From Styela clava (taxonomy: Eukaryota > Chordata > Ascidiacea > Stolidobranchia > Styelidae), in NCBI RefSeq assembly GCF_964204865.1, contig NC_135263.1, positions 12,507,426-12,571,425 of the forward strand: a DNA stretch of 64,000 bases, in the 5' to 3' direction. A program made the translations under genes and the position numbers. The notes below the pieces were generated by a model, which saw nothing but the letters and a program-made list of their open reading frames with translations, ran no database searches and was not told the origin of the DNA. Within the stretch, counting starts at the first letter, position 1. Each line of letters starts with the position of its first letter. Of this stretch, positions 1-61,440 are shown piece after piece.

Positions 1-2454
1 CCTCGTTACCCATTTCTATATCAAATCAGTAGTCACCTCTAGCAGGTAGTGCGATGCATAAAAGACACAATTTAATCATATCGGTAAAATTCGCTCTAAT
101 CCAATTTCGTGAACAATAACTGGTATTTGAACAATTGTTACCGCTACGAATTGTTGTAACAGATGTTTAAAAAGATACTTACTCCACCGCTACGGGTCGA
201 GTATCGCTTTCAAAAATTAATACACAGGGTTACAAGACGATGTTTTTGGAGTGGTATTCAACGAGTGACAGCGACGCCTGTTCAGAGCAATTGATACAGA
301 GATCGCTCAGTCTCAATAGAATGCCCAAACCACGAGCGCACAGAAGTCAGGAATCTTTTGAGTCATATTGTATTTTATATGCAGACGGTTTTGGGGAGGC
401 AGTTTAGCCAACATTTTTTTATTTCATAATATTATAAAATTATAACTACAGATCAGTATAGCCTGTGCGTACATCAATCTAATTATCAGGATTATTCAGT
501 CTTAGAAAATAGGTTAAATAAAATCTACTGAAGCGTGGTCGTTTGTGGTAAAAAGTATTGATGTAAACTTTTTAATGCCCGAAATTGTGTTTGGTTACGG
601 CTTATTAAGTCATAACAAACTTAGTTCTCAAAATATATCTAAAGTTGAAGTAAATGGATATCATCTGTATATATATATATATAAGAGTCCAATTGAAAGA
701 TATTTGATTTGGGAAGATTTAAATCTCAGTTCGATTCCAGAAGGAATGGGTTCGTAATCTAGAAAACGTTTAGTAATACCAATACAAAATACAGTAACCC
801 AATATCTAATAGATTTGCTATATAATATCATCTAACAACTATTCCAGCCCGAAATATCAACATCTTTTATGTTCCGCGTTTTAAAGGGGACTGATTGATA
901 GTGCCAATTTCTACTATATATCTACTGTAATATATTTGTGAGTAAGTGTAGTAATAAATTCTGAATACGTATCCAATTATTTCCAAATTTATTCCAAAAT
1001 ATATACAAAGTTGTATACGATCTACATATGAGAGAGAATCCGATTTGGTGTTTTAAATAGTTCAATTCCAGAAAAAATGGGTCTAAAACTCAGGCTTCAT
1101 TGTAATATATTTGTAAGTGTAGATATATATAATTAATAATTCGCAAAGCAGGTGTATTATAGCTAGCCACTTATTGGAACCATTACTATCACGAATGAGT
1201 TACGACCGAAATGACAATAGGTTGTGCTCGCGTAACCTGGCAACGATTGTGTGGAACAAAGTAAATACATTCTCTGTGTACACACAGATCGAGGGATAAC
1301 GTCTAATTTTTTTCGTGAGCCACGCGGCATAAGTAATATATACAAATGTTTCTATGTGTATGCAATGATTGTTACTATTATATATAAATGATACAGTGAG
1401 ACCATAAAATCCCCAAAATTACCTCGCATATAAAAGCAGTTAACCGTTTGAGTTTTAGGTGCACACTGCAATGACAATGTCATTACGTCTCGACTTGTTT
1501 AATTGTATATAATATACCGTTTCGTATTACGTCAATTTGCAATACATCTGTCTATTGGTAAATCCTAAGAAAAAAATTAGGAATTTGATGTTGGTCGCTA
1601 TATATTATTTCGATCGAAGTGGCATAGTTGAAGCAGATTATATTGCGTATTTTGAACGCGCGCGCAACAGCCAGATTTGTCAGTAACAATTCTGTGCCAA
1701 TTCTGACTAACCTAATAGTTTTTTAGGGGCTAAGCCAACCTTACTTACATTTTTTATGACTTACAAAAAGCTGAGGTTGCCGGGAGAGCTCAGTTAAAAG
1801 TAACAGGCGCCGCAAGTTCCTAAGATGCATGTTGCAGACGTAGGCAAAACTCGAAACAATGGTCTCCATGAGAGAAAATATTATGACGAGAGATTGATGA
1901 TTTTCGTATATCTAACGCGATTTATATTTATTAAAGGAGAGACGCACAAAACACTACCATTATCAGAACATTGGCGATCTTTTGTATGATGTGATTACAA
2001 ATGCCACGCTCGACTCTATGCTCCAGCACGAAAACCTGACTACACTTTAATGATCTTCGCACGCATAGTGGACATGGATGTTATTTCAATAGTCCGACTT
2101 CGAGTGACTGTACATGAAATCTGAAATACTCGTCAAACTAATACTAATAGAACACCCACGTGAACTTACCACGTGAAGTGTCATTATACCTCCCTCAGCT
2201 ATAATGTAATTTCAAACGGGAATGTGAGAATATCTTATTTCCAACACAAAATGCCGTTCGTTGATCGGAATTAAACACAAGACCCCGCATAACTTTTCAT
2301 TTATTAAAAATAATCACATTAGGCTAGACATAATATATTGAGGTAGTTTTCGGTTATGCAGCACGATCATTTAATTATGATGAGGCGGTGTATGTATTGA
2401 AAATTCATTTATGAATATACAGCAAAATTAAAAAAAAACTTTACAACTGTACAC
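1..2454. other. Upstream region, no gene recognised
   Basis: AT-rich sequence with only short open frames, none resembling a known protein and none with convincing splice signals. A short (AT)n run lies near 669-683. The last few hundred bases are probably the promoter and 5' leader of the TEX26-like gene. An ATATACAG acceptor-like site lies about 30 bases before its ATG. I see nothing else to name here. Confidence 0.5.
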
Positions 2455-5400
2455 ATGCCTGGAGTACCTGAAACAGCTTGGGGCGTTTGGGGCGAGCCCG
2501 AACCCATAAAGGCATGGGAATATGGCGCCCCAAAGGTAAGTAACTTGTACTATCAATTGACATTGATGGCTTATTTACTTCAAAAAATGCGTTACTTGTA
2601 ACAACATATTCGAATTATGAATTGGCGTTTCTTGTAATTAAAAAAAATATTTCGGATGGGATTTGTCCATTGTTTATTCTACGACATTCAGTATCGAAGA
2701 TTATTTCGTTTTGCGTGGTTTAAAATTTGGAACAAATCCCACCAGTTTTATCTCTTTTTTTGTGGTTTTATTTTTTCAACTCGTATCGCTGAGATTATTC
2801 AGTTTGTTAAAACATGATTGACATTTAAGTCTGTGACGTCACAATGGGTGAACAATATCACAAATTTCAATTTCAGCTCCACGGAGAAACTGGAGGAAAC
2901 GTACAGCCTCAGTTTTCAGATACCCTCAAGTGGTTTTACAAACGTACAGTAAACCCGAAGGATAAAGAGCATTGTCTTCGACTTTTGGCTCAAATCGAAC
3001 TGAAGGGAGAAGAGGTCAATAAAGCCAAAGCGAGCTTTCAGCCAACCTGCGGATCTGCAACAGGCGGTGAGCGGGTGACTTCAAAAAGACCATCATCTGC
3101 AAAAGTGCCAGCAAATAGAGTAGGCTTTGCGACCCACGTTGGCCGACCCAAGTCAGCATTTCAAGAAAAGAAATCACTTAGGGAATTTTCTAAAACTGAT
3201 GAGGAACCAAATTTAAAAAACGACCTAAAGGAAAAATCAAGTTATCAGAAACAAAAGGAATCGATCCATAGATTATCACGACCAAAGACAACAAATTTAG
3301 CAAATAATCAGCAACATAGTGACCATAGACCAAAATCTGCCATGGCAGCTATCGGTGAGATACTTTCTACATGTATAAACCAAAATGTTAATTATGCCTA
3401 TTTCGAACGACTCCTATAATTTATATCACTGGAACAGATTTTGAAAAATATATTATAACTGTGGCTATGTTCAAAGACTTCTATATAAATGATTAAATTC
3501 TTTGTTTAATCCACCTGTCAGTTTTAGAATCGAAATGCTGAGTTTTTAATACTGACAGGTTGAAAATACTAGACAGTTACGAACTAAATATGTTAAACAT
3601 TTGAATTAATATACTAAATACTACTCGATATAATAAATTTACAGGTGGAAAAAGATATGACCATCCATATTTGACCACACACGAGAGAGAATTCCCCGGA
3701 TATTCCAGTGGCCTGTGCGCCGAGGCCAAACGTCCTATGTCCAGCAAGGGATTCACAGCACCATATGAGTTATCTGGTCCAATTGGTGGCACAACTTGCA
3801 CCCAAGAATTTGGATGGAAAAAAGCCACGAAAAATGAACCTATACGTTCTGGGACTTCCTCTGGCAATAGACGAAACAATCCGCATCCCCACGAGGTCAG
3901 TAATAAATTTTGTTACATACATTTAGAGCTGGATTCGCAAAACCTGCCTTCTTGTGTGTGCCAACAATATTGGATTGAAAGTGATTACTGATTGCAAAAT
4001 TTACTGTTCCTTATTTGATGATGAACCGACCAACCAAAAACAATCTCCGAGTAATCTGGTACGTTTATGTCAGTCATCATAAGTCAACTGCCATCTACGT
4101 GTCGTGATTTTCTGCTTGCTTTAATTGATTCGTCACTAACCATCAAGCATGGTGCCGAAATTCCGATTTCTTTGCTATCTTGGCCGCCATTTATAATTTA
4201 CTTAAAAATTATCACGATGACGTGGTGCGATCTGGTTTTTCAATTCTGAACTGCTATCGACCTCTCATACTTCAAGACATTATCGCCGTTCCGCGTCTAC
4301 TTGTCCTATCAGTCAGAGATTTGTGATGATTGAAACAGAATTTGAGTTGCTGAATATCATTGAATGAGATTTGTTTAGTCATTGTCTCTAATGAGCAGTT
4401 AAAATGAAATAAAAAAAAACATGCAACCAAACTTACTTTTCTGATGAATCTCAACACCATGTTCTCCATTGATTCTTTGTCTGCTTTATCGAGTTAACAT
4501 AGAATGACTACGCTAATACGCATAATGCCTGATCTGCACCCACAAGGGGTGTGGCGGAAAGGGTCACTGCAACAGTCCTACTACAAATACAACGAGTGAA
4601 CTCTGTGCAATAATCTTTCCTTTTATAAGGCACGCAAGATGCAGTTTTAATTACATTCTCGCACCAACGAGCGAAATAGAACGTTCTAATCCATTCAAAC
4701 AAAAGAAGAACGTCTGTGATGACGATTAACGCGCCGACGTCGAGTACAAATCCGGTACTTAAAACGAACGTATACTAATCGCTCTAAACCGCAGAGTGAC
4801 ACATATGCATAAACCTCGCCATGGTACCATATATCAATCAAACACCGCCATTACTAGTGCGATTTATTATGTGTGAATGTCACATATGCTGGCTTTTGCA
4901 CGAATAACTCAACGGGTACTTCAGGCCAACAAATCACAATGGGCGCATATGATGTTTTCTGCGACGCCGATGCCAGACGCATGGGTACTCCCGTAGTGTA
5001 CACCAGGTTAGGCCATAATATTATTCCGATTTTTCTTATTTTAGGCATATTACGCGTTCGGGGTCTGTCTGTGTTAGCCAAGTGGATATACCTTCTGTCC
5101 ATAGGCTTTCGTCCCTTTACACAACTTGATATAAAGTAGGTGAACAAAATTAGTTACCTCCATATTGGTACACACACTTCTGGAGCGCCGACACATGCAC
5201 GTACATAAGATCCGTGAAATAAGAATTGGTGTTAATATGGTTATATTAACATTTTGAAATGATCTGTGTGATTTAAATCTGGATTATCACAAATTGACCG
5301 CTCTGGGTGGGAAGGCATTACAAACAGAATAATTCGTATTTCCAAAAAAAGCTGGTGTATGCTAATACGCAACTTTTTAGCCTATAGGCTATTTTTTCAA

Positions 5401-12400: not shown

Positions 12401-13087
12401 TGTATTCCTGAATAGCAGGCGAATTATACCGGTACCAGGTTACAGTTCCGTTTTTATTGTACACCATGCGCATGAGAAAGACCGTAACGCTAGACCTGTA
12501 GGCCGTAAATATTTAGGTATAGAACAACATTCGAACGTCTTGAAGCCAAAATTCATTAGCATAGTTAGCATAGCATTTAAAGGCATGGCATTAGGTAATA
12601 CCTTATCGTGGCGTGGTAGTGAAGTCATGCCAGTGGCCGTGTCACATAATAGACAGTAGACACTAGTGGTTAATCCATAGTTTTTATAATGATAAGAATA
12701 AGATCATTTTGTAATTCCCAGAAAAACAAACACAAAATATAACAACTCACAGAAAATCGCTGGCGAAACCACTGATAAGATTCAAAACGCGCAGAAATAG
12801 GAATATGGTGAGCGCCAATAAATACTGAAATAAGTAAATGCCCATTCATATATTTTGATCCGTATTTCATTGCTGATGCTATGTCTTATTGATTCCTCAT
12901 GGACTTTCCCCGAGCATCGACTTTCTTGTTTACTTCGTGGCATTGGCCATTGGCCAATTAGCAAGATGCAAAAAGTGACGTGCAATGCTCCCGTTTCGCA
13001 TCCGCTCGGACACTTTTCTCACTCAGACAAGTTTTCAAGCGTGGTCGTAAACATTCCCTCATTTTCGCGTTTTCGAAATTTATTCTT

Positions 13088-13543
13088 ATGTGGGAAATTT
13101 TACCTTTAAAAACCCATGCAAGAATAAAGTGGATTTCTGGAAATGATTTGTGTGCCCTCTGTGGCAAAGAACCAGAATTTATATCACATTTATTTTTGAG
13201 ATGTGAATTCACTCAACATATATATGATTATATTTTTTCTGTTATTAGGAAAATTAGTAATTTAAGAGAAGACTATTTGACCTGCATTTTATTAGATTTT
13301 TCCCAAATGAACAGTGTATTTTTTTCAGATTTTCATGAAAACATTATAGTATTACTTATATCAATAACAAGATATAAGATCTGGTTAGAAAGAAATGCTG
13401 TTATATTTCAAAAAAAGATACCTAACGTTCAAACAGTCATAAAACAGATACAAACTTCAATAACATGTCGGAGAAATATAGAAAAAGTTCGAAAATTACC
13501 AAATTTCATAAAGGAATTAGAATTTTTAACCAACTGTCTGTGA
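13088..13543 (+). pseudogene. LINE reverse transcriptase, C-terminal zinc-knuckle fragment
   Basis: The frame includes DLCALCGKEPEFISHLFLRC, the Cys-Cys-His-Cys knuckle found after the reverse transcriptase domain in many LINE ORF2 proteins, followed by a Lys-rich tail and a stop at 13541-13543. No reverse transcriptase or endonuclease motifs remain. The open frame continues upstream into flanking DNA only by chance. Confidence 0.85.
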
Positions 13544-17021: not shown

Positions 17022-18080
<1,059 letters not shown>

Positions 18081-44386: not shown

Positions 44387-47300
44387 CTACCCCAAATCTG
44401 GTTTCGCTTTGGAAGTTTTGTCACGATTTTTCCGCTTGCTTTGATCACGTTTATGTTGTTCAACAGCCGTTTCCAGTATTTCCGAAACCCCAGCCAGTTC
44501 TCTAGCTGTGTCATTAAGAGCTTCACCCACCTCATCATTAGTAGTATTGGATTCGGTGCTAATGCCTTCCTGTACCTGTTTGTAAGACAATATAGGTAAG
44601 ACAGTTTGGAAAGATGATAAGATGGTGCAATCATTTGTCGAACTACAGCTTTTTATCCGGTTACCAGTCCATGCATGGTATGAGAATAGTTAACACCTGT
44701 TACTTCTTTGAGTAGACTAATTTTGAGAAAGCTTATGTATTTTTATTAAAGTGATAGTAGGTGTGTCATTATTGACCAGGCATTGGATACAATGAAAAAG
44801 TGGAAATAAATTTTTTATTCAATTTTTAATATTTTAAAATAATAGATACTTTATTTCAGAGCAATGAGCAATAACTAAGAATTCGAATGATAACTTACCG
44901 GGTTTGGTATTGGCCAACCTCTAGGAAGGGGGATATTCTGTGAGTAAACTCTACAAAAAGAAAAAGGAAATTGTTAAAGCAAATCATATGTTTACATATT
45001 GTCAGCCTGATATGATGAGGAACATGCAGAATCCCATTCCCAACAATACAAAATTTGACTCGATTTGAGTGCATATCAATTCCCCTTTTCAAGACTACCT
45101 GTAATTGACAAAGAAATAATAAATGATAAATTGAAAAAAATCTGTAAAAATTGTCCTCACTTTTCAGCCTGTAAATTCCTGTTACTTCTTCTTTTTGTAT
45201 TTTTTGAAGAATTATGAGTTGGTCTACTGAAAGCACTTGGTCTATCTCGACTTTCAGAAGCATTCATCGCCGGTGGAAGAACAATATTTGAAGAATGTTC
45301 TGGAGTTCCAAAAGGAGAATGAAAATGTGGCATCAGAGGTTCAGGTGAATATGAATTTTTCAACTTATTCCAAGAATTTTCTCTTCTTAACAGCTTAGGG
45401 TTGACAGAACGAGGGTTCTGCTCAGAAACCCTGCCGTCTGATATGTGTCGTGAACGTCTTGGTGGTTCTGCGCTTTGCCGGGTTGGGGGAACTTGTGTCA
45501 CACTTGAAGACGGAACCGACATCACTCCGATTCGACGAGTTTCATCTAATGTATCTTCAGAGACTGTTGGACTTATGATATCATCAATATGTTTGGCTTC
45601 TCGTGAAGCATTGTATAATTCTCTCCTGCGTGCTTCGTTAGGTTTATATGCTGCAGTCATCAGTGTTTCTGAAGACTCAGATATGGTCTGTTGATTTTTA
45701 TTCTGCCCATTCAAAAGCAACTGATCAGCAATAGTTGTACCAATGCTACGAACCTGGAACGAACAATTTTAGGAAGAGATGAATATGAGTTGAACTCACG
45801 TTGAGTATATAATTTTAAATACCGACCATACAGACTGATGAAAAATGGAAGGGTAATGTTCCATTTACAACACACGTCCGACTCTACGACCAAGTCTCAA
45901 CCTGTATTTTGTCATCATATTCGTAAGAGCTGAAAATGCTGCCTTATTGACACTGACAGCAATGGATATTCGTCCACAACGCTCAACCAAAAAGATGCAA
46001 TGGCTTTTTGATTTAAATCAAACTTTAAATATAGATCACATAATCACATTCTTTTCATATCATTGCAAATCCCCTGTGCAGTCATCACACAGACCCCTTG
46101 GGGTGCACGAAAAAAAATCCTGCCATACGGGATAAGCAATGTCTTCCAAATGCAACTTATGCTCCAGCTCCAGATAATGTGAAATTTCAAATTTTTTGCT
46201 CGAATACATTTGTGAAAAAATAAAGTAGGAAAAGCGACTAAGATCTAATATGAAACAGTAGAAATGAGTAGCTGGACGAAGTATGGGCCCTTCATGATTT
46301 TTCTCTGTTATTCAGAAGGAAATTACGTCAGTAAAATTCACAGATAGAATACTCAAAAAGAGAAGTACGGTAAAACATAATATACTATGCATGTTCACCT
46401 TCAAGTAATCTGAAGATGGAGGTGCAGGTTCTTTGTTGAGAATAGCTGATCTAGAGCTCTGCCAACCTTTCATTCTGGAATCAACATAATTTCTGGATTC
46501 TGCCTGACAAGCTTCAGATACATATGAACTTAATTTATCATCAAAGTGAGACCTCTGTGTACCATTGCCTGATGATGAAACACTTTCTTCTCCAGATCGA
46601 AGATTCCTATCAAGAGAGAATGGCAAATAAACATATGTCTCCAGTGTAAATGTTGAATGAAATTGGTACATAGACGTGTTTTTGGCAGTCCAGGTTCTGT
46701 GTTGACTTGTAATGTTGTAAAAGAGGAAAGGTCAGGGGAACACAGATAGTTATAGCAAAATGCACCGGTGACTTTTTTTTCCAAAACACACTTTTAGTTT
46801 CGCCAATATCTCAGCCAAAAAGGTTGAACAAAATTTGTGCTTTAGACAGCAAAATCCAACTAATATTGCTATATTCTAGTTGACAAATCACCACCATGAA
46901 CTATGTTTAAAATATCTTTTTTCGACGCAAATATTTCACCTCAAATAAGGGATAGACACTGCTGTTCTCAAATCTTCTGGGCTCCTTGGGGATGCAGATT
47001 CCACTTCATGATGTCTGGATTTTCTATTCATATTCTTAGAACTTCTTCCACCACCTACTTTTGACATCTCATGATTCCTGAAACAAAAAAATCTCTTGTG
47101 AAATTTGGGATGGCTAATGGATTTTGAATAGAAATTTATAAAGATGGTGATTAAGGTTCAAAGAAACATATCATAAAGTAACTGTAGATTCGAATCCTAT
47201 GGGAAATGATCAGTTACTATATTGGCTATGGGAATTATTATTTATTGCATGGATCGAAGAAAAAATACCAAGCCTAATATGATTAACAGATCTTTCATTA

Positions 47301-50300
47301 AAAATCCCTTTAAAGGGACTTCCTATCTCCCAACCATAAGAACTATTGGAATTGTACATACTGCAAGGATGCTGTAGCAAGAAAAAAAGAGGACTCTTGA
47401 TCTTGTTGAATCAAATAAGACTTATCAAACGCATAAAATTATGATTCTGCATAGCCAGAAAATAAGATGGTCAGTTAGCCATCAGTAATGGCCCATACCC
47501 CTTTTTTTATGATTGCAGTCTGTAGCAATAATGCTTTACATGAGTTCATGTGACCCCACTTTGACACACACATTATTTTATAGAAAAACAGCTGTTTGTA
47601 CAAATTCTATCTTAGCACTAGACAATAAAAATTAGAAAAAAATAACGTTACTACATCACCACAATTTCCTGTTTACAAGCAGTTCCATGAAAGACAAAAA
47701 AGACACGATGCAATGCGGTAGCAAAATCGCAGTAAGTTACCATGAAAATTTATAAAATATGAATATACAAACCAGTGAACACAAAATATGTTTGATCGAA
47801 GAATTTAAATCTACTTCAATTTAAAATTACAAATGTATTATTACAAAATGTATTTACAGTTTAAATGGAAGCACAGATTTTTTTCCTCTCTCTCTCCCAA
47901 CTTTACTGGATATTTTTTGCTATAAAAATACTATGAGAGGTTTTGTACAATATAGTACAAAACATTTAATGGCTTTATGACCCTGGGTTTAGGGACCTCT
48001 ACCCAATTAAGTATAACCTCTATTATACTTATTAGACAATGTGTTATCAATCTATTTTATCATTCAAATGTAACTTCATCGAATTTGCTATTATCAAACA
48101 ATAATGATGAAAAAGAGCAATGGACTAATGAAAGGTCCTTGGCATACGCATTTACAATAACTTCTTTCACCATAGATTGTAGTGATTCGGGTAGCCCTAC
48201 AGAAGCATGAAGGAATGATAACCAACAAGCTGAAAGCAAGAGAATTCGATCCTGTCGGGGACAATCCGAAATAAAGATGACAATGTAATGAAGTTCAATT
48301 CATTTCTTTGGATTAGAATTGTAAACAAAATTGTAATTGATGGAAGCCATGAAAAACGATTAATTTGCTTCCCTTATGTATTGAATAGACATGAACATTA
48401 CCAATTAAAATACCGCTTTTCTAGCTAGTCTATTTAAATATGGTGTACAATTTCTTACATCCTCCAATTTACAGGATATATAGGATAGGATATATCTTAT
48501 AGGAAGTAAAATGTCACAGTCTTTTCCTGGTAATAATATTACCGTGCATTTGTATGGCACAAAGGTTGTATAAATCCATATTACTCTAAAGAAAAGCCAT
48601 TGTTAGAGCCCTTAGATTTTTAAATTTGATGCTATATATTGGTTTTAAAACTCAATGCCTAATTTTAAATGTGATTCGTTTTAGGGTGCATGGTTTTCTT
48701 GGTTGATGTGGCAAGTGCTGTAATAAAGAAACAAAGAATTAGACTATTCAAAGAGAAACACAATCACATAGTTCAAATCGTGTTTTCACGATATTTCTCA
48801 TAAATTTCCATATCTACAATGTAAAAAAACTTTATTATGGTTATAGATGGCATACAAAACCTCAATAACTCACTTCAAATAAGGATTAGAAGAAGAAACT
48901 CTTTTATCTTCCCTCTGAATATTTGGTGAAGTCTGTCCCATTCCGTCATGCGTTGTAAATCTTTTGTCTGGGTTTTTGTTACTTCTTCTAGATACAATTT
49001 TTGGTGTTTCCACTGTCAGGTTTTGGTCATGATATCTGAAATTTATAAAATGTAAAAACAATTTTTTTTTCCGCAAATGGTAGGATAGTTATTGCTGTAT
49101 CTCTGATGAAACCCGTTCCTGGAATGTCGTAATAATCTGGGAACCTTTTAAAAACCCATGCTTTCCAGCCTCCGGTCGGACCCGCTAGCTGTCACCGCCA
49201 CAACATAACTTGGCAATTAGAAATTTAAATATTTATGTGTAGTTGAATATTTTGAAATTCTTTAATATAATTTCAGAACTTCGCGAAAGTTTCATTTGGC
49301 AAGAATAAAAAACATTCTTATTCATGAAAAAAAGTAATTTCGTCAATTTGTGTGTAGAACATTTTTTATAAATTTAAATCAGAATCCTAATGCTTCCCCT
49401 TATTGAACAGAATGGTGTGAAAAGGCCGAGAAGAATAGTTATATGAAATTATGACTTTAAAGTGGGATTTGCATGCTCTCATCTATAGTAATGACGCTGT
49501 GAAGTACATTGATCCCAGCATTTAGTAGAACATATAAATTCATTAGAGGATTATCAATAGTTGTGTAAATTTTGTAGCTTCCATTCAAATGATAAAAGAA
49601 CAATGTCATTTGAATATGGAAATGAGAGATGAATTAATAAAGATTGAAATTTCAATTCAAGTAACATAACATGGACAAATATAAACTAGCACGATTCTGT
49701 CAATGTATGCACTTGCAGCTAAAATTTTAAAACCACAATTCATATATCATAAATCAAAGATATTATACTCGAAATATGCATTTTTTGTGCTGATAGGACA
49801 TTCAATTATAACTGTACGTGCAATAGTTAACAATAAATATAAAATAAGCAAGCATACACTACAAAATTTTATCAACTGATTTGCTTTTCAGTAGGGCTGG
49901 GAATAGATACCGGTAATCGTTTAATAGTTTCCGGATGGATAACGAGTACATAATTTTGAACGTTAACTTCCATTGGGTTATGTTTAACCAGTCAATTGGA
50001 TGGAATAATGAAATAATGGCATGAATAATGGAAGAGTGTTTTCACTGAAAATCCCTGCACTGCTACTCCGTAATGGAACTCATAGCTTACCTCATATCTC
50101 TGTCAGTCAATGGTTGTGGTACGTCAGCAAGTTTGATATTGTCAATAGAATTGTCTGTTTCTGAAGAACTTAAACTTCCTGAGAATAATATAAGATCTCT
50201 ATTGTTAGTATTTGATGAATATTTGAAATTTAGTTTTATTCAAATTTTGTTTCATATTGGTATATTTATACAATGCTTGATCCCTATTTGACTAAATAAG

Positions 50301-53300
50301 GATCTCCATACATTGCATGGAATTGTAACAGTACGGAAAGTTTTGGTCTACCAAATGGTTAATCTGTCTTGTCTTCTTTCCTCTCCCCGGAATAATTACC
50401 GGTATAAAAATTAAATCCTTTTTTTACACATTGAGCAACATTTCCCAATTGGGGTAGAATTCTTACCCAGGAAGGAATTTTGTTGTTTTTCGGAGCAATT
50501 TTACTTGAGTTTTGTGTTTGCTGTATTCTTACTAATATTTTTTAGTTCTTTATTATTACTATAATATTTCTATTTATATGCTCACATTATAAATTACTTG
50601 AACTGTACAAAAGGGGAGAGCAACTTGTGTTAACAGAAGCTAGGGATCCTTTATTAAAGATCGAATAAAGAACAAGCGAGGAATAAAACGTTTCAAAATA
50701 TGCGACGGGAGGGATTTAACGAAAAAGGTTGGGAATCTCTTGTCTTAAGCTATGCCAATGTACCCATTAATTTGATATTTTGGTTCAGCTTAACCAAACA
50801 TGATAAACAAATTTCATTATTTTTGGAATGATTACATGATGTATGCTTATAAATGCAAGAACTAATATCATCAATTCCGATAAATTATAAGCATAGAAAT
50901 TACTTTACAGTAAAAAAATAAGAAAAATAAATGTAAAATGAGCCAGACCTGTCTTAGGTCGTCTATGGTGACTTGATGCTTTTTTATGGTATATTTTACT
51001 GCGATCTTTTGAAAGTATCCCGTCGTAATCAATTGTGTTATGAATCGAAGTAGGATGACCATTTGACCTTGTGGGAGATCGAACTTCATGATGCATTGAC
51101 AGTTCTTGGTTGAGATTTCTTGCTGCTTTGTAGTGTGGATGAATGTCATCACCTGAAAAAGATTTGCCGTAAAATTTTTGATTTGTTTCATACCTGGATT
51201 GTGGATTGTTTTGGTAAAAAATTGTTGCTGTTCTTATAGGGTTGTTGTTATTGTGAAAAAAATCTTTTTTCAACACAGATAATGAGACCAATCAATTTCA
51301 AATTTTCAGTACTTGAAAACGATGTCGGAAGCCATCTTGATTTTTATTTTTTATTTTCAAATTTTGATATATATAATTCACCAGCACACAATCATATTGT
51401 AACAGTTAAACCAATGCAGCTTTTTAGATCTTCTGTTATTATAGACCGAGGCTCATCTTTTGGTCTGGGTTTAAAAGATGCACCTTTTAACGCTCTGATT
51501 TTGGGTGGTGCCATATGTCCAGTTTGGCTGTTGGAAACCAAACTACTACGAATATACAATTTTCTCAAAACTTCGAAATGGAAATTTAGTCCTACTGTGG
51601 TATGGCATTTGATATAATTCTTTCAACATCTGGAAATTTGATACGACTTTGGTGGCCATACTAGTCCTTTAACCTTCGTGTTCATATATCGAGCAATGGT
51701 TTCTTTAAAAAAAAACTCACCAAATGAGGTAACACGTCTAGAATCAGAATTGCCATTCCTGCTCGAACGATGATGATAATGCGTTATAACAGGACTTCCA
51801 TTGATCATGTTATATTTATAAGGAGATAATTGTAACGCGAGTGAGCGTCGATTTGAGTGAGTACTTTTTTGTTGAGGAGATACATGATGATGGTGAGGAA
51901 TTGAATCGGATCTTTTGAATCCTCTGAGGTAATCTGCGGATTCAGTTCTAAAACAAATTATTGATGAGATTTAATATAACTAGAGATATAGGGTTTTTCT
52001 TTTTTTTGAATTATACCATTAAAGTAGGGCAGCCAGACCTCATAGATCCGGAAGTCATAATTTTACCTTTTTTTTGGAGTCGAGTGCCAGAATTCAATAC
52101 TTTTAACGGTTATAATTGATCATCAAAATTTTAGCTGCAAAAACCCGAAAGCATCAAGTTGACAGAGGCACTTTTAATAGACAATTAAATAAGGCTTGCA
52201 GGGGCCAAACTTTTGTTATGAAAATATGGTTTTCAAGGAGTTACTAGAGTCAAATTTATTGTCAACCAGGATTTAGGTCGTCTAAATGCCTTTGAGTTTA
52301 GAGTTAGGTGTGGAACTCTATTGCCCCGATTACAATAGGTAGTTTACTATTTAAAATATTATAGTATTTTAAATTGAAAATAAAGTCCCGTGTAGAAATT
52401 TATTTTGCTAGTATGCCACCCAGAATTTATGTCAAATTTTGAGGAAAAAAATTGGCCTATTAAAATTAGTGATACAATACAATTTGGATATTTTATAGAT
52501 AAAATTTCTATAAAATGAACTATTTCAATATGCAAATAATGCAATCGCATCCTACACCATTAAGTTATTTGAATTTTTTTAGAAATAAGATTATACTTAT
52601 CAACAAAGAAAAATCTAGACTATTGTAAATAGCCCAAAGCAACCAGATATGAATAATTTAGACAAAAAAAACAAAAATACTGATATCCACAAATTTCACC
52701 TACCTATGAGGCTGCTTTGGTTTCGTCATATTATATCCCAGAGTCATCATATCACTTTCCAGTGCGAGTTCATCTGATAACCTTTTTCTTTCTTTGATAA
52801 AGTCAGGCTCTTGAATTTTTTGCGTGACCTCGTGTGATGCTATATGAGGGTATTGGACACCGCCTAAAAAACAAGGATTTAAGCATTAGCATTATATAAT
52901 ATATATTTTTTCACTCTGGTATGCTACATTGTGCGATGTTCAATAACTTATATGTCATGTCTCAATAAGAAATAAAAAATTCACACAAAAAAATTGTATT
53001 TAACAAATGAACTGGTTTTAATCATATTATGAAAACGAAAAAGATATATTAATTCAAGTAGCAATTCCTTATGATGAATAGACATACTTTTGCTATCTGA
53101 CTGCATAGAATTGGCCACTGGCTTTGATGCATTCTCTGAATCATCCCTCGGTGTAATAAGACCTCTTGTATCGGTTCTATTCAATTTCGAACGTTGAATC
53201 GCATCATCCCAATCTCGAGGTAGTGACATTGTTTCAAGTACAATGATCAATTCCTGGTAATAAAAAGAGGAAGAAAAGGGTTGTACTGTGTGCTGTCTCT

Positions 53301-56300
53301 CAATTAAAGCATACTTGACTGCGTTAAATTACAAAAAGATAGATGTGCAAATAGGGTACATTGGTATTCAACAGAGACCCTATGAATACAATGTTAATTT
53401 GATGCAGTAATCGGGGGTGGAGGTGAAAAATTAAATCTAAAATACTCAAAATTGGTGATATTCTATATTTATGAATATTTTACCTTAAAAATATTTTATT
53501 GTTACCATTTGACATCCATTGGTACGGCATAAAATAGACTTAAATTTACTTCTGAAAATTATAAACAACAAGGGCAAAATCAATATTTACATGTACCACT
53601 GAATTTAATCAACGGTACGTACGGTATACCAATTTTCAATGATTACTGCAAATTTATTTTCAGAATGCATTTGGTATTCCCTATTCATAAATATATTATT
53701 TCAGAATTCATTCTGAATAATGTGATTTCGGGCCTCCCTGACAGTAATCTTGATAACTTTGATAATCAGTGTAAACGTGATACGTTAATGATAAAAACGA
53801 GGATAAAGCAGTCGAAGAACCAAAAAAAAACAAATATACATACAGGTAGAGAAAGTTAAAATGGAAGAAGAATGTGTTATGAATCACAATAATGCAATCT
53901 ATAGTCATATACAGATAAAGGATTTTGAAACTTACTAACTTTATGGCAATGCTAAGGCTTAGCTTCCCAACTCTAGAATTCTGGCATTGCTTCAAATAAA
54001 AAGATACTAAATTTTCTTCATAGGGTTGTTTAATTATTAAAGTACTGTTGATGTATATCAAAAGGATATAATGAAGAATGATGAACCAAACCAAGAAAAT
54101 AGAGATAAGATGGCAAAATGACAAATCCCACATTCCCCAGAGACACGACCAAATTAAAATTCTTTTCTAAAATCAAATATTAATATTATTAAATAGTGCA
54201 AAGGTGAAAGCGACAATGATAAATTTTTATTTGGAATTTTACTATGTATATAAAAAGTTGGTTTAAAGTGAAATTTATTTTAGTCTTCAGAAATAATCCA
54301 ATTTTTTTTAATTTTGAAAAAATAAAAATATTTTTGCAAATTCATACCATTTTCACTTCCAGAATTATTTTCCCAAAAATTGATAAATTTTTTCTCTTAT
54401 TAATGATATTAGAAATAATATTATAGCATTTAATAAAAAATTTGGATTAGTAAAATGTTCTCCGTTTGTGCCAAATATATAAGAATAATATGAAGCTAAT
54501 CCACCTAACTGTCAATTCAATACCACAGGGAATTGCTCAACAAATTCCTGGGATTATTTGTACCATGTTTCCCAGAGCAATAATGCTCTCAGGATAGTAT
54601 GTATAGAAGGAACAAGTGATATCAGACTTTCAGACATAATTGAGGTGTTGATGTCTGTTGTATATACAGCATTAAAGAAGCTGGTTTGACCACCATTTCA
54701 GCGGCATTTGGATTTTCCTTTTTACTAAGCTAACATGGAACTGCCGGTGGGCAGCCTGCATTATCGAAAACAACGAGAGCAAATAAAGCTTGGAATTGAT
54801 TGAAAATTATGAACTATCATTATAATATATTACGATCGCCCCTGCCCTATCAAACTTGCAATGACATTTTTATGGGTGCAAAATATATGCATGGCAGAAA
54901 TTTACCATAACAAAAAAACACGAGAGCAATGCTTCAGTATATGGATACGGAGGTCACATTTTGGTAATGGCAGGGTAGGTTTGAGAGTTTTAAGATTGGT
55001 GGATAAAAAATATGTGGACTGTAGAGCAGATATGAGCAAACTATGACCAAACTAAAACCAAATTTTGATGTTGAGCTAAAAATAGCTCAAGAATTTTTTT
55101 TGAGATTGGGATTAAATTTAGTTTTGGCACAAGGCTCATTGTTTTCCACTTTTGCTTTTGTAACACTGTAAATATTGTTCGAGTCACACTTACATGGCCC
55201 GCCAGTCACCCCTGCTGTAGAGGGTCAAGAAGTGAGGAATAAAACGGATGCCCTTCAATTAAAATAATTGAGGCAAAATTTTTGGTGAAATATCTGGTCT
55301 CATAGAACTCAGCAGATTATTAAAAAAAATAGTCTTCTAGCGATTTCTTCTATTTAATAAGTACCTATTGAAAGTAACTGTTCTAATATTTGCAAAAAAG
55401 CAATTCTTTTTCGCAAAAACAACAACAAGAAGAATGTAGCAAAACAATCCACTTCATGTCCAATAGAGCTCAAAATATTAAATTTTCCAGCTAAAATAAT
55501 ATATTCTGACAAAGTTTTACAACAAAAATTACTACCAGTAGTAAAATGCACTTTATTTTAGTTATTTTAAAGCGACCTACTTTAAAAGATGGTCTCTGCA
55601 TTGGTGATTGGTCCCATGATCTTGATATTATTGCATGGAATCCACTGGGTAATTCACATGGGATGTTCAAACGTTTTCCACTGGATACCAAAGCCAGAAT
55701 CTAAATTTAATAAATTCAAAAAAGAATCAAAATTTAATATAAAAAAACAGTAAAATTGCATTTTGTGGACAATAGGTGACTTCAAAATTAATATTTGAAT
55801 GACTAAATGAACTGAAATTGGACAAGGTAATCACAAATAAAAAAATATAGAAAAGGCAAGTGTAAAATGTAAATTTTATCTTCTTATTACCACATGATAA
55901 CTCTTACATGATAAGGTGAAATTTTGTATAAAATTCAGTCGACTAGTTAAAATACAAATATATATCTCACATATTTTTCAAAGTTTACTTGATCCATCTC
56001 TATAAGCTAGTCAAAATGAGCCTTTGAACCAAAGCAAAAGGGTATCAAGAGTTCAGATGACTCATATTGGGAAATTGCCATAAAATTTCAATTAGCATTT
56101 TCGTGCTATAATTATCCATTGATATACCTCAGAGGTAGATGTATCTTTGTGTGGTTTTGTCATCGTAGCCATTTCCCACATAATCATTGCATAACTGAAC
56201 ACGTCAAGTTTCGTTGTTAAATGAACAGGAAATTGTAGAAGCTCCGGAGCTAAATAACTGAGATTGGCTCGATTTGACACACCCGCGTCCAACCTATAGT

Positions 56301-59300
56301 TACAACAAAACAGACATTTAAAATCTGAAAATAGTGTATAACATCAGTTCAAAAGGGTCAAATAGTACAGGGTGTTCCGAAAGTACTGTAACAGTTTCAA
56401 TTTTGTTATGACTTCAGTTCTCAATATATATTGATTAACTAAGTTTGTTTTATTTTAGCTAGTGTTTATTTAAGCTTTTACTTCATTTATATAAAGACCA
56501 ACAAACCATCATATGGTATTGATAAATTCCCTTTGCAATTTGAAATATTGAGATTTCATGAACACAGAGTGTATTGTGGCTTATTTGAAACAAGTTTTTC
56601 AATTGTTCTGCATTAAATTTTTTTTTTACTTCATTTGGTACACGTATATAGACCAACAAACTATCATATAGTATTGATACATTTCCTTTGCAATTTAAAA
56701 AATTGAGATTTCACGAACACCCTGAGTATTGTGGCTCATTTAAAACAAGTTTTCCAGTTGTTCTGTATTAGAAATTGAGGAAATATATTTTAAAACTTTG
56801 AGCCATTCTAGATTGCAGCACAAGCTTGGCTTTACTGATTGTAAAATTGTTATGAATTGCTTCAATTATGGCAAATCTAGACTTCTATGAGCCATTTGAC
56901 ATTTAAAGTGAGAAGGGTAACATAAAACCAAATAAAAAGGGTAAAATATAACAAGATTTAAAACAATCTCACATACATCAAGCTGATAATATGGCATAGA
57001 TCAGCTGTAACAGTGCTGGCTATCTAACATTAACAAACTGATATAATTAAATAAATGAATTTTGCCTTATTTTAGAAAATCCAAAGTCAGCAACTTTCGC
57101 CCGACCGGTTGAGTCTAGCAAAACGTTACAAGGTCTCAAGTTGAGATGAAGAACAGGTGGTTTTTGTCCATGAAGATATGCCATTCCAACAGTGATATCT
57201 CGAACTATAGAGTAATATTCGACTGGGCTAAGGGGCCATCCTAAAAAAAAAAGAAATAAAAGTTGAACATTACTTCCCATTTAATTAAGACAATAATCAA
57301 ATGTCTTTATGATATTAAATCATTTTTTTCCCATCAGCAACTGAGATAAAAGAAATGATATAGGTAGGTTATCAACAATATAAAACTTGTAAAACGGAAA
57401 GTGGCCAACAAGATAAGACTACTGTACAACTAAAATGACAAGGTTCTAATTCAACAAGAAACTGAGGTCACCAATCTGATATCACAGTCATAAATCATAT
57501 ACTTGATGGTATATCACCTAGCACAGAAAATATTTCATGTTCTCAGAAACTAGTCAATAAAAATATGAAGCCTAATGTAACAATGATGATGTGGACTATT
57601 GTCGATAGTCTACCATACTAGAATAGGCATGGGCGCCATATTGACCGCCAACAGAATGTCTGGCCTTATCAAAGTTTATTTTCACATTTGCACTGATAAC
57701 ATCAGTAAATGACTGAGAAATACAGTTAAAACCACATCAATAATTATAGATGTTATCAAATAATTTTTAACGTTTTTGATAAAGCTATAAATTAACATTT
57801 CATGTGACATTTCACCGACATACCATCAGAAGAATGTAATCTATCATGTAAGTTTCTTCCTTTCACAAGTTCTGTGATAATTAAAGGTTGTAAAGGTGCA
57901 GTTGACACACCAAATACTTCAACAATATTCTGATGATGTAGTGCCATCAAAAGTCCAGCTTCGGCTGCCAAGTAGCTCCTATAGAAAATTGGAGGTTTTA
58001 ATGATGATGGTACTATTTTAATTTCAATTAAATTGTACGAAACGAACTATATTTTTCTAAAAAGAAGTTTGTTTCAGTGATCACATACAGTTATTATTAA
58101 ACCAAAAAAAATATGTTTCATGTCATGCCGTCGCTTATATATATCAGGAAATTGGGCTCTACTAGGCCAAGAACAATCAAAAATTCCAGGCTCGGCATAG
58201 CATATCAATATTAGGTTGAAAGGAGCTTTGAACTGATTACTGGACCATCAAGGTCTTTGAGTTTAGAGCAATAACCTGTAATAATAATTGGACAAATCGC
58301 CACAGTAATACCAAAGTAGCTACCGTATGTCACAATAAGGTTTTGAGAAAATCACTTTTTTGTAAGTGTGGTTCTAACAGTCGAACCTGTAAATTTACAT
58401 GAGGCACTACCTGAAATCCAATCTAAAACAGTTTCAGAAATAAAACTCAGACCAAACAATATTAGTAAATTTGAACAATATTATATATATATATATATAA
58501 TATTATGGACCTATATGCCTTTTGCTGGTATATAATGTGAGATAACAGATTGTAATAAAGATGGGAATATTGTATAGACTGAAATGACTGGTGAAGAATA
58601 CCATATAAACAAGAGCTTGTTCATGTTAAAAACATTGTGTTGTTGATAATACTTACACAGATAAAGATATGATATCAAGCCACCCACCTGTCTGATGTTG
58701 ACATCATATCTGGACGAATTAACTTCTTGATCGCAGCTTTCTGATTCTTGTATATGGTTCCAGAGTACACATAACTCAAATAACCTTCGCCAATAAGGTC
58801 TGCATTAAAGTACACAATATCGTGAGCAGCAATATCAGGCGTTCTACCAAATGATTGATGAGAATGCTGTTTTTTGAGTTTATGAAGAGCTTGCTGTAAA
58901 TGCTTCACTTTTTTCTTGTATCTTTCTCTTTCAGACATCAAGCGTTTTATTACTTTTGTGGGTGGAACATCTTTGGGTAATCCTCTTGACCCAAGCCATT
59001 CCTCTTTGACTAGTAAATCATTGGCATCTGAAGTCATAGACCCGTGGAGGTTGAAACCATCGTCAGATGACAAAGAGGGTGATTGGCAATTGACTTTCTT
59101 AGTCGAAAAGGGTTTGTTAGATCGTGCTCCATTCACTAAAGCATTTCGACCAAAATTTTGCACTTTCTTTCGAACATCTTTAGCAGCATTATCATTGCCA
59201 TCTGACACCTCATCACAATTTTTACATGGAACCCCGGGATCTGCTAGAATTAAATCCATTTCAGTTTGTTTTTCGGGTTCGGTTTTTATATTGTCTATTT

Positions 59301-59838
59301 TTTCAAAATCCTCATATTCCCCACTCAACCGTGTCACAAACATTTGTTGCTGCTTTTTCAAATCTTCAATTTGTAATCGTAATTCATCACAAACTTTTCG
59401 TGCATCTCGAATTTTAGTATCATTATCATCGGGGGGTGCATGATCCAATATTAGAGAAGCTGATAGAGCTTGAGCAAGATTTTTTTCCACGGGTTTGTCA
59501 TTTTTTTCAACTTCATTATTTACATGAGCATGAAAAGATTTTGCTGAACCATTGGAATGGGATAAAGCATCAGTCGCTGAAGTTGAACTATGAAGAGGGC
59601 TTTCCTGCACTACAGTAGGAAGAACAATTGGTTCTTTGCCCGTTTCTTTTTGTTCACCAATATCATTTTGCTTTTGAAAATTTTGTTTTTTGATATCATT
59701 ATTATTCAATTCTTTCACAACAAAGTTTGCCAGTTTATTGTCATTTTTATCAACAGCTTTACTTAGTGAAGAAAAGGTAGGCTTCAAGAATCCTGCGCTA
59801 CCGGCGGCAATCGCATTAGATTTAATTTTAGATGGCAT
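44387..59838 (-). CDS. TKL-like kinase/pseudokinase with coiled coils and long Ser/Arg-rich tail, at least 16 exons, about 1317 aa
   Basis: Exons in order: 59838-58688, 57978-57824, 57240-57066, 56293-56128, 55700-55581, 53253-53088, 52863-52704, 51947-51721, 51152-50949, 50178-50091, 49035-48874, 47077-46940, 46606-46399, 45753-45161, 44950-44899, 44575-44387. All phases join. Two more exons (51629-51596, 51542-51412) would add 55 residues in phase. Residues 1-300 are polar, with coiled-coil-like helices at 142-172 and 296-325. The kinase domain spans about 345-600: glycine loop GEGYLSYV (350-357), Lys371 in AAIK, HLNLRPCNVLL (467-477), DFG 487-489, APE 509-511, RPSFKELI. The catalytic loop has Asn469 where kinases have Asp, so catalysis is doubtful although Lys, metal-binding Asn and DFG remain. 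Intron 3 appears to be GC-AG. The tail (from about 610) is Ser/Arg/His-rich and probably disordered. I do not recognise the orthologue; a TEX14-, TNNI3K- or MLK-like relation is possible but unproven. A start-proximal acceptor (59864) and a two-codon uORF (59862-59854) precede the ATG. Confidence 0.85.
56480..56770. repeat. Tandem duplication in a kinase-gene intron (2 x about 140 bp)
   Basis: Units 56480-56615 and 56628-56770 share GACCAACAAAC(C/T)ATCATAT, GTATTGATA, TTTCCTTTGCAATTT, TTGAGATTTCA(T/C)GAACAC, GTATTGTGGCT and AGTTGTTCTG. They are clearly diverged, so the duplication is not recent. A CAGGGTGTTCCGAAAGTACT motif at about 56369, typical of some transposon ends, lies just to the left and may mark the source element. 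Confidence 0.75.
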
Positions 59839-61440
59839 AATGTGTTTATCAAATCAAGACATTCTGAAAATAATATTATATTTATATGACACCACAAAAT
59901 ATACATCAATATAGACATGAAAAATAGCGTCTAAAGAAGTACATTTCTGTTTGGCTTTATTCAAGCAGTTTCGGCAGTAATTTCACATCACATTTTTGTT
60001 TGACGTTGTTAGTTAAAAATTTACCCTACAGCGTTTACTTCGTTACACCCAAAAAATATAAATAGATTATACTATCATCATATACTATTCATTGGCATAC
60101 GATTGGCGCATCATACCAAACATTAGGAAAACGCTAGGGATCCCACCATTGATTACCCTATACAAGTTTCATTTAATCTCATTCACATCTTAGTAGGCAA
60201 CTGTTAATAAGATAACTACAAAACTTGGAGCAATAAGCCTAACCTAACTTCAGTGGTGGGGCAAGTCTATAATCTCTATTGGGAAAATATAACCTTTTTT
60301 TAAAATTTCTTCACAAACAAAGGCAAAAAAATGAAGGGAAATAGATTATAAAATTCATGGCGTGGCAAAAATAGGATATTTACTAATTACAGGCGGAAAT
60401 TTCCATTGACAGAATTAATAACATACTTGCCATAACAGTATTATAACCTTATATTTTGCTTTCAGGGTATCCAGTTCCAGTATTAATCTTTTTGCCCCAT
60501 TGAAAATGATTGATATTAGATATTAAATATCTTTGTATTATTGCCTAAAATTTATTGGTTAAAAAAAATAAATTCAAACATTTGGGACATTAAGTTTATC
60601 AATAACAGCAGCAACAATTCACAATCACATGCTTAATACTGTAATGAAACCTTATGATTCCTCATTGTAAAACAGGTAAAAAAAATTTTTCTCATGGTTG
60701 AGTTCAGTATACTGGTATATGTATTATTCCAGATACCTGGATACGGTAAATAATAGAATCTCAATCTCTTTAATGGACAGCTTGAAGATGCCCTATAACT
60801 GTATTTTGGTATCATTACGTACTATGTCAGCTTGTGGTCCCCTATTATCACTATCATATAATGACATAGTGCGAAGCATAAGATAGATCACAAACGTTTG
60901 ATATACTATCAGACTGTCGTTACTGATTTAAACTTTATAAGAGCGAACTACAGAACTATGCAATCTTTGTTGCAACATTTCTGTATTTCTCGTACTGTCG
61001 TACGGTTCATATAAAAAATTATCAACCTACTAACTTCAACCCGTTTAAATCTAACCAAGCAGAAAATGTTGAATAAAATAATGTATAATATTATCGCTAG
61101 CCTACTCGCCTAATTTGCGGCACACGAACCTATAATTGCAAGACGTCACGATTCACGACCAGGAACTCAACAATTCTCCCGTGTTTTCATTCAACTGAAT
61201 CGGTTTGTTTACTACGACGAGCGGCCGTTTGTGCGGTTCAATGACATCACAAACCGGCGTGTTGGTCAAATTCAAATCCGGTCCCGGCACAATGTGGAAT
61301 CTGTTAGTATTTGTTCTGAAACTTTAAAATAAAATTTAAAATTTTCGATTATGAATAAATAAGCGACATATTTTTTTATAATACCTGATTCCCTTTCTAG
61401 CTTGTGTTAGGACAAGTTAGCTTTATAACAAGATAGCAAG
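59839..61440. other. 5' leader and upstream region of the kinase-like gene
   Basis: On the minus strand a TTTTCAG acceptor ends at 59864, followed by ATG TCT TGA (59862-59854), whose TGA is in frame with the main ATG. This fits a 5' UTR intron or a spliced-leader site. The remaining sequence has no recognisable gene. CG-containing sequence around 61140-61270 may be the promoter; that is a guess. Confidence 0.4.

Follow-up and report, generated by a model that had tools for sequence, protein, structure and literature searches.

An intact Styela clava gene for a probable tyrosine-kinase-like pseudokinase scaffold with asparagine at the catalytic aspartate position

We found an intact gene of the ascidian Styela clava, detected once in its genome, that probably encodes an ATP-binding pseudokinase scaffold of the tyrosine-kinase-like (TKL) group. 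The gene lies on the minus strand of a 64,000-nucleotide stretch of contig NC_135263.1 (positions 12,507,426 to 12,571,425 of assembly GCF_964204865.1), here called the window, and its kinase domain carries asparagine, Asn469, where kinases have the catalytic aspartate. Since Asn469 replaces an essential catalytic residue, ATP binding and the organisation of other proteins, not their phosphorylation, are probably what the protein contributes, as is the case for several known inactive kinases. Judged by its sequence, this is a pseudokinase of a known kind in an architecture without an assigned family.

The long kinase-like gene that a preliminary description had placed here held up as a model of 16 exons and 1317 residues, with hand-picked splice sites, running from 59838 to 44387 (Table 1). 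Splice phases are consistent and keep the frame at all 15 junctions, 14 of the 15 introns are GT-AG, the exception being the GC-AG intron that follows exon 3, and no exon interrupts the used frame (16 of 16 open), whose sole stop is the terminal one in exon 16. This frame has a higher codon-usage score than both other frames in every exon except exon 5 (15 of 16). The score was trained on codons 1-605 together with one neighbouring gene, so for exons 1-5 and part of exon 6 the comparison is not an independent one; among exons 7-16, which lie outside the training set, the used frame scores best in 10 of 10. Two further observations concern the surroundings of these exons. The GC-donor intron contains a 126-base direct repeat in two copies that are 87% alike (56490-56770), and some 25 bases ahead of the ATG an AG follows a T-rich stretch (59864-59873, minus strand), a possible acceptor for a spliced leader or an upstream exon.

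Table 1. Exons and kinase landmarks of the gene, in window coordinates
Feature	Position	Strand	Basis
Exon 1, residues 1-383: N-terminal region, predicted helices, glycine loop, Lys371	58688..59838	-	
Predicted long helix, residues 141-180, possible coiled coil	59299..59418	-	AlphaFold, low confidence
Predicted long helix just N-terminal to kinase domain, residues 293-325	58864..58962	-	AlphaFold, low confidence
Glycine loop GEGYLSYV, residues 350-357 (Ser355 for third glycine)	58768..58791	-	
Beta-3 lysine, Lys371	58726..58728	-	
Exon 2: alpha-C helix with Glu390	57824..57978	-	
Exon 3 (catalytic loop, DFG), preceding the sole GC-AG intron	57066..57240	-	
Catalytic loop HLNLRPCN, residues 467-474	57125..57148	-	
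DFG, residues 487-489	57080..57088	-	
Exon 4: APE (Glu511) and F-helix Asp524	56128..56293	-	
Exon 5: C-lobe with Arg585	55581..55700	-	
Exon 6: kinase domain end, tail start	53088..53253	-	
Exon 7, tail	52704..52863	-	
Exon 8, tail	51721..51947	-	
Exon 9, tail	50949..51152	-	
Exon 10, tail	50091..50178	-	
Exon 11, tail	48874..49035	-	
Exon 12, tail	46940..47077	-	
Exon 13, tail	46399..46606	-	
Exon 14, tail	45161..45753	-	
Exon 15, tail	44899..44950	-	
Exon 16, C-terminal stretch and stop	44387..44575	-	

A search of the 376.6-Mb genome of the same species found the gene once; the 20 other matches listed among the best candidates scored are kinases of 23-31% identity, and no second copy or haplotype of the gene appeared among those candidates. 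At the gene's place, 14 of the 16 exons were recovered as separate matches, the missing ones being the short exons 10 and 15. A Pfam kinase search of this genome, in which 139 of 682 candidates were scored, gave a list of 150 matches; the window gene is absent among them because its exons match too weakly singly. A search for COX1, as a carrier of the ascidian mitochondrial code, returned no match. Loss of a catalytic residue and the one GC-AG intron might point to a decaying pseudogene, but internal stops and frameshifts are absent over 1317 codons, coding bias is seen in all ten of exons 7-16 and the other kinase hallmarks are retained, which makes decay very improbable. Elsewhere in the window, a galactose-1-phosphate uridylyltransferase of 352 amino acids with both Pfam domains occupies a single open frame (17022-18080, plus strand), and a reverse-transcriptase-associated zinc-binding domain (PF13966, 27.8 bits against a cut-off of 27.5; 12962-13543, plus strand) probably belongs to a retroelement.

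The kinase domain matches PF07714 over residues 348-592 with 150.4 bits against a curated cut-off of 23.1, placing it in the protein kinase superfamily, and is the only domain of the protein above a Pfam cut-off. In an alignment against 16 reference kinases, the core retains Gly350, Gly352, Val357, Lys371, Glu390, Asn474, Asp487, Gly489, Glu511, Asp524 and Arg585. It is altered at Ser355 (third glycine), Asn469 (catalytic aspartate), Arg471 (usually lysine) and Ala529 (the glycine after the F-helix aspartate). Lys371 and the DFG aspartate thus stand as the preliminary description had numbered them, and the APE motif that it had noted is present, whereas the glycine loop, which it had counted as kept, has its first two glycines only. 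The loop HLNLRPCN with Asn469 at the proton-acceptor position was also correctly described, the codon being AAC (57142-57140, minus strand).

Three further residues have precedents in the reference rows: arginine at the 471 position in SRC and MLKL, alanine at the 529 position in RIPK2, RIPK4, TNNI3K and ILK, and, for Leu468 in place of the HRD arginine, the HLD of RIPK4; the SRC loop is HRDLR. Because Arg471, Ala529 and Leu468 occur in reference kinases, Asn469, the equivalent of Asp166, is the single clear catalytic lesion, with the residues for ATP and Mg retained. Under the definition of a pseudokinase as a kinase domain that has lost at least one of the equivalents of Lys72, Asp166 and Asp184, the domain qualifies through Asn469.

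The preliminary description had also considered that the exon with HLN might not be used. Within the span of the gene, the pattern H.[DN]....N has two minus-strand matches in any frame, and the one besides HLNLRPCN contains a stop. Exon 3 is 175 nt long, so that its skipping would shift the reading frame, and exon 4 contains four and two stops in its other two frames.

Retention of the remaining main hallmarks of catalysis is also compatible with a substitution that is recent or allelic. Under this reading the gene would encode an ordinary active kinase, and the AAC codon, in place of GAC, would come from a rare allele or from a mistake in the assembly. The loop is a single base away from HLD, the motif of RIPK4, and the genome offers no second copy or haplotype for comparison, but the surrounding exon is intact in frame and splice sites, and we regard an error or allele as quite improbable.

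Aspartate-to-asparagine substitution at this position is a standard kinase-dead mutation that also occurs naturally in HER3, JAK2 JH2 and PSKH2. According to PMC4718504, HER3 with asparagine here binds ATP with a Kd of ~1 uM, and JAK2 JH2 is nucleotide-bound in structures; for PSKH2 with its natural asparagine, nucleotide binding is predicted only (PMC9988210 and PMC7586955). The former terms primate PSKH2 a pseudokinase for a single Asp-to-Asn switch, with other ATP-coordinating residues retained. Of the two readings offered in the preliminary description, a pseudokinase scaffold and an active kinase, the scaffold fits: the catalytic base is the one clear loss and the ATP-binding residues are kept, a combination with which weak activity is still compatible. 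In a weakly active kinase, Asn469 would hold the substrate in a position good enough for phosphate to be transferred slowly, as is reported for HER3 and JAK2 JH2. The remaining main catalytic residues are retained, PMC9988210 notes that HER3 and JAK2 have very low activity, and PMC7586955 states that the substitution has been found to support catalysis in both; since domains with asparagine here are reported to be weakly active, the kinase may be less than fully "dead". Against this, PMC7586955 also states that the substitution usually abolishes catalysis, and PMC12119088 counts D-to-N versions of RIPK1-5 among kinase mutants. The HRN form of PSKH2 is inactive in assays, yet so are its HRD and N183D forms (PMC9988210). 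Taken together, we consider weak activity unlikely.

Under the preferred reading, a pseudokinase scaffold, the kinase domain would fold and bind ATP through the retained Lys371, Glu390, Asn474 and Asp487, and its phosphate transfer would be poor or absent. About 345 residues precede the domain, in which the preliminary description had noted coiled coils. A single-sequence AlphaFold model of exon 1, of low confidence (mean pLDDT 46.3), predicts four helices of at least 30 residues (25-54, 98-132, 141-180 and 293-325), and by a crude count the best heptad-like stretch of the protein is 294-324. The helices are thus predicted and the coiled coils plausible. The Ser/Arg/His-rich tail of roughly 700 residues is borne out by the composition of residues 606-1255 (Ser 14.9%, Arg 9.4%, His 4.9%). 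Raw counts over the whole protein, taken without a chance expectation, are 7 PxxP and 18 SP/TP matches. From the predicted helices and the tail, the protein may well bind partners and be regulated through phosphorylation: the helices may gather copies of the protein or its partners, and the tail, to judge from its composition, may serve as a docking or phosphorylation platform. Signalling would then proceed by conformation and assembly, because the helices would gather partners and the tail would dock them. Pfam matches below cut-off to FAM199X (16.1 bits), LAM_C (17.7 bits) and HR1 (11.1 bits) were set aside.

Among the best 60 of 611 solved structures, the highest scores are those of CTR1 (119 bits), ZAK (110), TNNI3K (104) and EGFR (104.3), followed by TAK1 (98) and by RIPK2 and EphA2 (95). 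The top seven structures are all CTR1, ZAK or TNNI3K, and the domain accordingly reads as TKL, by a margin that is small because EGFR reaches 104.3 bits and Eph/Src-type tyrosine kinases fall among TAK1 and RIPK2. Identity to the 16 reference kinases is 19-32%, highest for CTR1. In a tree of 17 rows the window kinase is sister to RIPK2/RIPK4 (support 88/76, unstarred), and it stands beside them in a tree of 12 rows (77/83, unstarred), with TAK1 nearer than the RIPKs by path length in both. When L035-L039, five further kinases from this genome, were added, it fell in a mixed RIPK-side set (89/91, unstarred), with a program warning that the long branches of the window kinase and L039 meet; the rows of PKA, IRAK4, LIMK1, ILK and MLKL were left out of this tree and of the 12-row tree. 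Topology tests on the 12-row tree, which lacks L037, disfavoured joining the window kinase to MLK1 (p-AU 0.019) or BRAF + KSR2 (0.025), and did not reject, at the 0.05 level, TNNI3K (0.22), TAK1 (0.17), CTR1 (0.084), ZAK (0.068) or DLK (0.062). The kinase thus leans, not decisively, to the RIPK side of TKL. The earlier statement that no named family can be given stands within the searches made, which returned one Pfam domain and the low identities above; we assign none, because the tree neighbours of the window row shifted with the rows used.

A ZAK orthologue is unlikely, since L037 of the same genome groups with ZAK (98/97, starred). This ZAK relative has the loop HRDLKSKN, and in the examined part of L037 the kinase domain is the only one that Pfam shows. 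In collections without animals, one stretch of the viral contigs matched the search pattern and proved no relative, and 34 stretches of bacterial and archaeal genomes included six weak kinase relatives (L029-L034, 23-39% identity), which were set aside, and no orthologue.

Of the other kinases on the RIPK side of the tree, L036, L038 and L039 keep the catalytic aspartate. L035 (G000:C2:20783715-20787527, ORF 1432-2955, plus strand) is a RIPK-like kinase of 507 amino acids in a single open frame, with a C-terminal Pfam death domain (9.5e-14), the catalytic loop HLLLKCTN and DIG in place of DFG; judged by its residues, it is the second kinase on the RIPK side in this genome to lack the catalytic aspartate. 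L036 (G000:C10:21451192-21454920, ORF 1-2322, minus strand, open at the locus end) has a kinase domain with the loop HCDLKAEN and, after it in one open frame, four stretches that match the Mind bomb SH3 repeat (PF18346), an unusual combination. For tunicates, PMC12119088 reports no homologue of RIPK1 that has both RHIM and death domain. A speculative extension, to which we give little weight, is that the window gene is a natural counterpart of the laboratory kinase-dead RIPKs: a RIPK-side, ATP-binding protein with a fixed HLN, helices and a docking tail that signals by scaffolding only. If so, then together with L035 it would suggest that non-catalytic proteins took over RIPK-type signalling on more than one occasion in this lineage. 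Should Asn469 be fixed across related species, the gene would offer a clean natural test of a TKL kinase without its catalytic base and, alongside L035, would bear on RIPK-type signalling without catalysis; should it be private to one individual, the gene is ordinary.

Comparison with named kinases places the protein among several partial parallels. MAP3K20 (ZAK) and plant CTR1 are TKL kinases and give the best-scoring solved structures among the best 60 of 611, but share only 30-32% identity and have HRD catalytic loops. The solved CTR1 chains 3p86 and 3ppz differ, N against D, at the Asn469-equivalent position; literature searches found nothing on CTR1 D676N, nor on an "HLN motif" in connection with pseudokinases. 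TNNI3K, likewise TKL (31% identity, 104 bits), retains HRD; it carries ankyrin repeats, which Pfam did not find in the window protein. HER3, JAK2 JH2 and PSKH2 share asparagine at the same position, according to the sources cited above, but belong to other kinase groups, and HER3 lacks the alpha-C glutamate (PMC4718504) that the window protein has.

RIPK4 and RIPK2 come closest in the loop itself. The loop and its flank read LHLNLRPCNVLLD in the window and LHLDLKPANILLD in RIPK4, and exon 3 is 47% identical across RIPK2-query residues 109-165; over the whole domain, identity to RIPK2/RIPK4 is only 29%. The RIPK family is defined by a kinase at the N-terminus combined with a death, CARD, ankyrin or RHIM module at the C-terminus. 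The window kinase instead lies mid-protein, Pfam found no death domain, CARD or ankyrin repeat above cut-off, and a scan of the protein for a RHIM-like motif found none, so that it falls outside this architecture. The solved RIPK4 chain 5wni has asparagine at chain position 143 and reads HLN as the window does; from this letter, the numbering and PMC12119088, we infer that it is the engineered D143N form. According to that paper, cat RIPK3 with a mutated catalytic residue gives NF-kB activation and not cell death. The nearest working parallel is offered by the RIPK proteins, in which a scaffold output can remain after catalysis is lost.
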